A DNA stretch of 37,947 bases from Propionibacteriaceae bacterium (GTDB lineage Bacteria > Actinomycetota > Actinomycetes > Propionibacteriales > Propionibacteriaceae): NCBI GenBank assembly GCA_017882685.1, contig JADGPA010000072.1, positions 1-37,947 on the forward strand, read 5' to 3'. The notes under the pieces are model-generated. The model did no database searches. It was given only the letters and a program-made list of their open reading frames with translations, and had not been told where the DNA came from. A program made the translations under genes and the position numbers. This document shows, in pieces, positions 1 to 2,028 of the stretch (the stretch's first letter is position 1; each line of letters opens with the position of its first letter).

Positions 1-274
<274 letters not shown>

Positions 275-318
275 AGCGAAGGCGGTGAGTGGCGATTTCG
301 TGTTGCGGGAACGGCTTT

Positions 319-390
319 TCAGCGCATTCGACAACACACCATCGACGGCAGGCAGCGACAACACATGGTCGCGGAGCGCATCGAGGACAT
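319..390 (-). CDS. Cys/Met-rich leader peptide upstream of metY (candidate attenuator)
   Basis: A 23-codon ORF begins at ATG 388-390 and ends at TGA 319-321. It encodes 5 Cys (positions 10, 11, 13, 19, 20) and 5 Met (1, 4, 9, 17, 22). It includes two Cys-Cys pairs within MCCRC and MVCCRMR. Four of the five Cys codons are TGT, the rarer Cys codon in such G+C-rich DNA. A 10-nt direct repeat (minus-strand TGTGTTGTCG, at 329-338 and 356-365) places the two Cys-Cys pairs nine codons apart. The ATG lies 6 nt after a TAGTCT -10 box, so the transcript probably starts at the ATG (leaderless). Polycysteine leaderless ORFs acting as cysteine-responsive attenuators are known from mycobacteria. Here the gene controlled is metY, 148 nt downstream. 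Function is inferred from composition and position. Confidence 0.6.
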
Positions 391-396
391 GCGCGG

Positions 397-426
397 AGAC
401 TATCGCCGCGTCCGTTGAGTGGTCAA
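397..426 (-). promoter_or_regulatory. Promoter for the metY leader
   Basis: On the minus strand the -35 TTGACC (426-421) and the -10 TAGTCT (402-397) are separated by 18 nt, close to the SigA consensus. A start about 7 nt after the -10 falls on the A of the leader-peptide ATG at 390. It is divergent from the guaA promoter. Confidence 0.6.
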
Positions 427-460
427 TCGGGTCTTGGAATCCGAGAAGGCCGGTCGGCAA

Positions 461-466
461 TAGACT
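461..466 (+). promoter_or_regulatory. -10 box of guaA (leaderless type)
   Basis: TAGACT lies 8 nt before the guaA ATG, and no purine-rich ribosome-binding site is visible. The mRNA probably starts at or next to the ATG. Confidence 0.45.
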
Positions 467-474
467 CTGCTGCC

Positions 475-2028
475 ATGACTGCAGAACACGATCTGGTGCT
501 GGTGGTCGACTACGGCGCCCAGTACGCCCAACTCATCGCGCGACGCGTGCGCGAGGCAAAGGTGTACTCCGAGATCGTGTCGCACACGATGAGCGTCGCC
601 GACATGCTCGCCCGCAACCCGAAGGCGATCATCTTGTCCGGCGGACCGAGTTCGGTGTACGAACCGGGCGCCCCTCAGCTCGACGTGACCCTGCTCGAGG
701 CCGACGTGCCCGTGTTCGGCATCTGCTACGGCTTCATGGCGATGGCACAGGCACTCGGCGGCACTGTCGCCCGCACCGGCCAGCGCGAGTACGGCAGGAC
801 CACCGTCGAGGTGCTGGCGCCGGGAAGGCTGCTCGGCGGCCTGCCGGCAAGCCTGAGTTCCTGGATGTCGCACGGCGACGAGGTCACTGCCGCACCGGAG
901 GGGTTCACCGTCAACGCGCGGTCACCGCGTGCCACCGTCGCAGCGTTCGAGAACGACGAGTTGCGACTGGCCGGCGTCCAGTGGCACCCGGAGGTGCTGC
1001 ACTCCGAGCACGGGCAGGCCGTCCTGGAGCACTTCCTGCTCGACATCGCGGGCTGCCGTCCGACGTGGACGAGCTTCAACATCGCGGACGACCAGATCGC
1101 GCGCATCAAGGCTGAGGTGGGCGACGCCCGGGTGCTGTGCGCCCTGTCCGGCGGCGTCGACTCCGCCGTCGCTGCTGCCCTCGTGCAGGCGGCCATCGGT
1201 GACCAGCTGACCTGCGTGTTCGTCGACCACGGCCTGCTGCGCAAGGGCGAGGCCGAACGCGTGGAGACCGACTTCGTCGCAGCCACCGGGGTCTCGCTCG
1301 TCGTTGCGAACGAGCAGGACCGGTTCCTGAACGCGCTGGCCGGGGTGAGCGACCCGGAGACCAAGCGCAAGATCATCGGCAGGGAGTTCATCCGGACGTT
1401 CGAGGACGAGGCCCGCAAGATCAACGCTGCCGGCCCGATCGACTACCTCGTCCAGGGCACGCTGTACCCCGACGTCGTCGAATCCGGCGGCGGCGAGGGG
1501 GCTGCCAACATCAAGAGCCACCACAACGTCGGGGGCCTCCCCGACGACCTGCAGTTCACGCTGATCGAGCCGCTGCGCACCCTGTTCAAGGACGAGGTGC
1601 GCCAGGTCGGGCGGCAGTTGGGCCTGCCCGAGCACATCGTCGACCGGCACCCGTTCCCGGGACCCGGCCTCGGCATCCGCATCGTCGGGGCCGTGGACGC
1701 CGAGCGCCTGCGGATCCTGCGGGAGGCCGATGCGATCGTGCGCGAGGAGACCACCGGCGCCGGCCTCGACCACGACATCTGGCAGTTCCCGGTGGTGCTG
1801 CTGGCCGACGTCCGTTCGGTCGGGGTGCAGGGCGACGGTCGCACCTATGGCCACCCGATCGTGCTGCGTCCGGTATCCAGCGAGGACGCGATGACCGCCG
1901 ACTGGAGCCGGTTGCCCTACGACCTGCTGGAGCGGATCAGCACCCGGATCACCAACGAGGTGCCCGAGGTGAACCGCGTCGTGCTGGATGTGACGAGCAA
2001 GCCGCCGGGCACCATCGAGTGGGAATAG
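475..2028 (+). CDS. guaA: GMP synthase (glutamine-hydrolysing)
   Basis: 517 aa, the normal length. Converts XMP to GMP using ATP and glutamine-derived ammonia, the last step of guanine nucleotide synthesis in the cytoplasm. The N-terminal class I glutamine amidotransferase domain (about 1-190) carries the catalytic triad Cys84 (FGICYG), His171 and Glu173 (QWHPEV). The ATP pyrophosphatase domain has the P-loop SGGVDS (225-230). The C-terminal dimerisation domain ends in the conserved PGTIEWE. The ATG at 475 is chosen because homology starts there ([19 protein letters not shown]). Longer in-frame extensions upstream are not family-like, and a TAGACT box lies just before this ATG. It is monocistronic between divergent metY and convergent pspC. 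Nothing is missing. Confidence 0.97.

Follow-up and report, generated by a model that had tools for sequence, protein, structure and literature searches.

In the 2020 study by Canestrari et al. of mycobacterial polycysteine leaderless small ORFs, six loci are said to respond. The model proposed for these ORFs, in the form in which other papers cite it, is that a stalled ribosome frees the ribosome-binding site (RBS) of the next gene (PMC9031893, PMC9094748, PMC13236596), and leaderless Cys-rich upstream ORFs were described in mycobacteria by Shell in 2015 (PMC4633059). Seliverstov in 2005 had predicted Cys leader peptides upstream of the cys operons of Mycobacterium and Propionibacterium acnes and upstream of cbs in Bifidobacterium longum, in the part of that report cited here without terminators (PMC1262725). 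The six predicted Cys leaders of Mycobacterium tuberculosis amount, in the account cited, to 145 codons in total or about 24 each (PMC9094748); hence the 23-codon leader considered below is not, as its initial annotation had it, longer than the known ones. In a literature search that covered open-licence papers, no Cys leader upstream of metY was found.

A candidate leader ORF upstream of metY

The window, that is the whole stretch of 37,947 nucleotides analysed here, is a contig (C188) of a Propionibacteriaceae draft genome (G000; 2.98 Mb, 88.9% complete, 3.17% contamination). On its minus strand an ATG at 390 opens a candidate leader ORF of 23 codons plus stop (390..319), predicted to be leaderless and constant in length across 18 loci in 17 genomes, which contains five Cys (codons 10, 11, 13, 19 and 20) and five Met (codons 1, 4, 9, 17 and 22). 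Upstream lie a -35 element, TTGACC (426..421), an 18-nt spacer and a -10 element, TAGTCT (402..397), the latter separated from the ATG by the six nucleotides CCGCGC. The sequence thus agrees with the initial annotation in the promoter, its distance from the ATG and the length and composition of the ORF, as it does in the 148 nt from the leader stop to the metY ATG. In window positions 1..600 a promoter scan returned a single promoter-like site against a shuffle mean of 0.1, calling the same place with shifted hexamers (TTGACC, 16 nt, GATAGT).

The gene downstream encodes an O-acetylhomoserine sulfhydrylase (metY; PF01053 match), of which the window holds the 5' end (3..170, minus strand), cut by the end of the contig. 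Its ATG at 170 stands behind CAGGAGCGAA, with the Shine-Dalgarno (SD) sequence AGGAGCG at 179..173, minus strand (given as CAGGAGCGAAATG or CAGGAGCGAA). The untranslated spacer of 148 nt between leader and metY (318..171, minus strand) has 43% C and 22% G. Diverging from the leader on the plus strand, with its ATG at 475, is a gene that we take to be guaA. A full copy of metY, 94.6% identical over 56 aa to that of the window, is found on contig C177 of the same genome; its product scores above the TIGR01326 cut-off and the next gene above that of TIGR01139 (cysteine synthase A, cysK). As the window contig stops inside metY, the position of cysK in this genome is read from the C177 copy. The two copies of the metY-guaA region (window 1-1469 against C177, L184) are 89% identical and encode identical leader peptides; they probably represent two strains or species that were binned together.

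When both strands of the window were scanned with a rule for leaderless short ORFs (TANNNT, 5-8 nt, then ATG or GTG opening an ORF of 6-45 codons), this leader was the only candidate, and none of the 204 candidate short ORFs in 30 first-order Markov copies of the window was polycysteine. A similar scan of 816 kb of fetched loci (overlaps included) gave matches only at leaders before metY or cysK. Across the whole window none of 4227 Rfam families matched at its gathering score, including any known riboswitch. The Cys codons of the window leader read, in order, TGT TGT TGC TGT TGT. TGT had been called rare, and it is indeed the minor Cys codon, with 13 of 80 Cys codons in the 21 window ORFs of GC3 above 0.8, a filter that favours TGC and a sample in which some ORFs are possibly spurious. 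A 10-nt direct repeat, TGTGTTGTCG, is present in the window leader as annotated; being missing from all 17 other metY leaders, it was rejected as a regulatory site.

Conservation of the leader in relatives

Conservation was assessed in 41 genomes with the region itself and, with an RNA model built from 14 leaders, in 198 family genomes. Strong matches (E below 1e-18) lie upstream of metY in 17 of the 30 genomes of the Propionicimonas-type genus to which G000 belongs, at 18 loci when both copies in G000 are counted; matches weaker than about E 1e-4 were left uncounted, and six weak ones that were read (L058-L060, L066-L068) lack a Cys-run ORF at that position. Beyond the genus, matches below 1e-8 were obtained in three genomes of a genus here labelled g13. 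A pattern derived from the leader matched 15 stretches in genomes sampled one per species. (Propionicimonas is placed under Nocardioidaceae by NCBI.)

All 18 metY leaders have 23 codons and a TGA stop, and in every one a TANNNT element occurs 6-7 nt before the ATG, so placing the start codon at the transcription start predicted from the promoter. The gap from leader to metY is 112-150 nt; TTGACC is found 18-19 nt before the -10 element in 15 of the 18 and TTGCCA in two, with neither at this place in L048. Because this 23-codon ORF recurs before metY at 18 loci, each with a TANNNT element 6-7 nt before its ATG, the leader is, as judged from this comparison of sequences, a genuine ORF rather than a product of chance. 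Comparison with relatives had been named in the initial annotation as a test of its own proposal, and the Cys codons upstream of metY are kept. Three more genomes of the genus have divergent Cys-containing ORFs before metY (L014, MFSTRATCRCLGVPSMTR; L021, MNLVAVGRCCPGTPTLRDKTR; L033, MSHQDCLCFARCGVTLMCLRMR), while G010, G016 and G021 have metY with no recognisable Cys leader upstream.

The conservation is strong at the nucleotide level, and the pN/pS of the ORF (0.64 in frame versus 0.57 in frame +1) is uninformative, both of which can be cited for a reading in which no peptide is made and the conserved DNA is an operator or an accident. Yet the fixed length and frame, the kept spacing to the -10 element, the alternation of TGT and TGC and the link to both metY and cysK all speak for a translated leader, and we regard the explanation without a peptide as barely credible.

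Cysteine as the most likely signal

The most constant feature of the peptide is the tract at codons 10-13, which in the window reads Cys Cys Arg Cys (363..352, minus strand) and contains three or four Cys in all 17 distinct metY leaders (L011 was left out, its ORF being identical to that of L010). Where one of the four residues is not Cys the exception moves, being Gly at codon 10 in two leaders, Arg at codon 12 in four and Arg at codon 13 in two, and the Cys codons of the tract alternate between TGT and TGC from leader to leader. Further Cys occur at codon 19 in 10 and at codon 20 in 16 of the 17 leaders. The Met codons form no conserved run in these leaders: Met4 is present in three, Met9 in 13 (with Leu in the other four) and Met22 in 15 (with Ala in two). 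Met17 is found in all 17, where codons 16 (TCG) and 17 (ATG) are invariant; it is Ala in the cysK leaders L052 and L056 described below.

The gene context points the same way. In 12 of the 17 leader-bearing genomes cysK directly follows metY, and in two (G014, G176) a metB-like gene (above the TIGR02080 cut-off) and one more gene stand between them; from this gene order metY and cysK may form one transcript. In the remaining three (G006, G022, G177) cysK was found elsewhere in the genome (the G006 contig ends inside metY), with no Cys leader found upstream, though metY keeps its leader. A homologous leader stands directly before cysK in G013 and G016, on contig C51 of G017 and in the three g13 genomes; the G017 contig may be contamination, as that genome is 9% contaminated and the peptide equals that of g13. 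Since the Cys tract is kept and Met only partly, and since cysK either follows metY or carries a homologous leader itself, the signal is most likely cysteine.

The initial annotation had envisaged a mixed signal, with ribosome stalling at either Cys or Met codons controlling metY. The five Met codons of the window leader, the presence of Met17 in 17 and Met22 in 15 of the 17 metY leaders, and the similar mixture of Met and Cys in MetL, a leaderless peptide before metNIQ in Streptomyces lividans (PMC8079986, in the part cited), would accord with such a dual sensor. However, the number of Met varies, with Leu or Ala in their place at codons 9 and 22; Met17 belongs to a segment whose nucleotide sequence is conserved and is Ala in two cysK leaders; and homologous leaders stand before cysK itself. 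We therefore consider a dual sensor improbable. What survives of the original description is a conserved, leaderless and Cys-rich leader before metY; a mixed Cys and Met signal is not supported, nor does metY point to a methionine signal, given that cysK directly follows it in most of these genomes.

To place these leaders among other cysK genes, 80 upstream regions were picked from a longer list in the GTDB family, of which 67 were scored after 13 with an unrecognised gene start had been dropped. Nine hits were obtained, two of them without a -10 element, leaving seven of the 67 regions with a leaderless Cys-run ORF and a -10 before cysK. These ORFs belong to other genera of the family (L236, L240, L241, L264, L277, L284, L304); L277 and L284 (MITTRQALMSCCCASMCCCAC) resemble the g13 leaders, and the others (for example MTNASGIGAARAAAHVMCRCCRPRA) look different. 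In L236 and L241 a GGTGTTG in the Cys codons is, by eye, perfectly complementary to a CAACACC just after the stop, and a second GTGTTGTCG copy about 70 nt further on looks like an alternative pairing, again by eye. No significant pairing of the Cys tract was found in these seven family cysK leaders.

Predicted pairing of the leader with the metY ribosome-binding region

In the minimum-energy fold of the window RNA, computed for RNA free of ribosomes and for RNA carrying one at the leader stop, the CGCUCC of codons 5-6 (378..373) is predicted to pair with the GGAGCG of the metY SD (178..173). Beside this, the UGUGUUG of codons 9-11 (365..359) would pair with the CAACACA adjoining the SD (185..179), which is thus complementary to Cys codons, and the GCUGC of codons 12-13 with a GCAGC at 195..191 (all minus strand). 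Within the 60 nt before metY, codons 9-13 find a complement of 13 bp in L010 and of 16 bp with no interruption in L022 and L023 (TGCAGCAGCAACACAT, about 20 nt upstream of the metY ATG). When leader segments were slid along, complementarity peaked at this tract (mean z -1.18 over 17 leaders), with p below 0.05 in only four of the 17 individually.

The effect of a ribosome was modelled with footprint masks, covering nt 52-84 for a ribosome at the stop and nt 13-45 for one on the Cys codons. The predicted openness of the window SD rises from 0.11, with no ribosome or one at the stop, to 0.41 once the Cys codons are occupied. The mean for 18 leaders is 0.25 in the former state and 0.34 in the latter, and 13 of them gain more than 0.02. 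L022 and L023, in spite of having the longest pairing, show a gain of 0.00, because their helix lies upstream of the SD, and the whole region from -18 to +12 opens more in only 10 of the 18. An earlier mask over the whole leader as the state with the ribosome at the stop was discarded as unrealistic: it also blocked the SD-pairing strand, so that the SD seemed indifferent, and replacing it by footprint masks changed the conclusion on the SD.

In 16 leaders (the near copies L011 and L023 excluded), the 46 nt that precede the SD block were shuffled; the pairing of the tract (8.57) and that of the leader with the SD (2.22) exceed 100 of 100 shuffles, and the gain in SD openness 99 of 100, counts that overstate independence as the leaders are related. 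The control segment, codons 3-8, was reached by 95 of 100 shuffles. Taken individually, the shuffle fraction is below 0.05 only in L010, L012, L022 and L048 (0.23 in the window), and in four of the 16 (L015, L017, L024, L043) the Cys tract is unpaired with the metY side. The leaders' own spacers pair little better than those of other leaders (8.57 versus 7.67). Synonymous recodings, drawn with assumed GC3 weights, never reached the native SD gain (exceeding 100 of 100); they reached the native value in eight of 100 cases for tract pairing and in five of 100 for leader:SD pairing, which is borderline, and total pairing of the leader with the initiation region is ordinary, being reached by 41 of 100 recodings. 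Together these folding predictions suggest that a ribosome stalled on the Cys codons may free the metY RBS from leader codons 5-13.

Two other pairings were considered. That between codons 15-23 and the near spacer, striking by eye, does not exceed dinucleotide shuffles (mean z for 18 leaders, +0.68), with -21.3 for own spacers versus -20.8 for those of other leaders, and was rejected. A stem between codons 3-5 and 15-17 is the best of the slid versions and has 92.4% of cells paired, with no double-sided changes. Leader codons 15-17 (CCGTCGATG) are encoded by a CGTCGATGG that is nearly invariant in metY leaders, synonymous positions included, a near-invariance not explained by pairing to the metY RBS.

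Rho and intrinsic termination as less likely alternatives

A Cys leader peptide could also act through Rho, which would bind the C-rich spacer once the ribosome has left, while a stalled ribosome would refold the RNA and hide the site. The spacers are indeed C-rich and G-poor in all 18 cases, with C minus G from 0.10 to 0.25 and a mean of about 0.20; the mean is about 0.05 (-0.15 to 0.19) for 130 nt of upstream sequence at 16 metY homologues that lack the canonical leader, a comparison set in which the gene start is approximate in eight and three carry the divergent Cys-containing ORFs. The C-richness of the window spacer stands at the 99.7th percentile of the window, no terminator-like site occurs in window positions 1..600, and in none of the 18 metY spacers is the best hairpin followed by a U run. 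Rho was also proposed for the Cys leaders of Mycobacterium and P. acnes by Seliverstov in 2005, in a prediction called weak in the passage cited (PMC1262725). Set against this, C-richness is a mere proxy for a rut site, the folds offer in many leaders a direct route to SD opening that needs no Rho, and the mycobacterial precedent is, in the accounts cited, described as translational (PMC9031893, PMC13236596). Control primarily through Rho is accordingly a minority reading to which we still give appreciable weight.

If metY were controlled by classical transcription attenuation, its leader would contain an intrinsic terminator; in favour of this, the cysK leaders L052 and L056 carry a hairpin and U-tract 18-20 nt after the leader stop. 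These hairpins have z of -2.7 and -4.9, respectively, against 60 shuffles, and constrained folds of both leaders switch in the expected direction. However, no terminator-like site was found in window positions 1..600, those found being confined to L052 and L056; the number of terminator-like sites over these two loci does not rise above shuffles (1 versus 1.7 and 4 versus 3.2), their antiterminator pairing does not surpass that of randomised arms (fractions 0.44 and 0.36), and codons 15-23 pair with the near spacer no more than shuffles do. For metY we hold this explanation to be very improbable. L052 (from G016) and L056 (from G013) come from AT-richer relatives, and their hairpins would be an output unlike that of the metY leaders.

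Proposed mechanism and significance

With rather better than even confidence, we propose that the leader peptide attenuates a sulfide-assimilation operon (metY, mostly followed by cysK) in response to cysteine, and that it would do so by sequestration of the RBS. Transcription would start at the leader ATG, as the promoter indicates, and ribosomes would bind the ORF directly at its leaderless start. If Cys-tRNA is sufficient, the ribosome would get past the Cys codons, and the 5' half of the leader, codons 5-13 in particular, is predicted by folding to pair with the metY ribosome-binding region and keep the RBS closed. Were Cys-tRNA short, the ribosome would stall on codons 10-13 and cover the pairing strand, upon which the SD would open and metY be translated; the spacer behind the leader may in addition let Rho end unused transcripts. 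By this scheme metY is probably switched on when cysteine runs short. The initial annotation had suggested that the mechanism might differ from that of the mycobacterial leaders, but the folding leans, with exceptions, towards the same RBS sequestration.

A wider and more tentative proposal, which we regard as possible but on balance doubtful, is that a single cysteine-sensing cassette, comprising the promoter and a leaderless ORF (motif resembling M..T...M-CCC(C)..PSM), has shifted along with its target between metY-cysK and cysK inside one lineage and has more than one output. In the GC-rich genomes this would be occlusion of the RBS, the Cys codons themselves serving as the antisense strand to the ribosome-binding region of metY, and in the two AT-richer relatives it would be intrinsic termination.

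The above observations add metY of the Propionicimonas lineage to the genes that stand behind cysteine-sensing leader peptides, and the position of cysK, usually right behind metY, offers a reason why a gene of the homoserine pathway might be under a cysteine signal. They also provide a naturally occurring set of related leaders that differ in whether they carry a terminator-like hairpin and in how extensively they complement the RBS region, and on this set translational, Rho and intrinsic-terminator models can be separated.

Comparison with known systems

The leader would differ in mechanism from the ilvB1 attenuator of M. tuberculosis, likewise an actinobacterial leader peptide that senses charged tRNA, which, as described in the source cited, uses an intrinsic terminator and antiterminator and responds to other amino acids (PMC13236596). 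S. lividans MetL (MSTTSDRTPATEATTTPGARCMCRRMCAF) is also leaderless, mixes Cys and Met and precedes a sulfur amino acid gene with no clear terminator in the description cited; it differs in being described as methionine-related, in having no run of three Cys and in its target, the methionine importer metNIQ (PMC8079986). With three Cys codons (PMC8079986, Table 4), MetL could itself be a Cys or mixed leader.

The leaders predicted by Seliverstov in 2005 are likewise short ORFs that contain a Cys run and precede cysteine genes, and as with those of that set described without terminators, none was seen in the metY copies here; in contrast, two relatives' cysK copies have terminator-like hairpins, and the Cys run, placed near the stop in the earlier set, lies at codons 10-13 of 23 (PMC1262725, in the part cited). 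The mycobacterial polycysteine leaders too, as far as the cited accounts go, are leaderless ORFs of about 24 codons with a Cys run that stand first in a cysteine-metabolism transcript (PMC9031893, PMC9094748, PMC13236596). They differ in their targets, the present one being metY (usually metY-cysK), with only metY or cysK copies among the loci examined. On the folding predictions, the leader most likely works as its mycobacterial counterparts reportedly do. The type of regulator is thus one already known from related bacteria, and metY is its new target.
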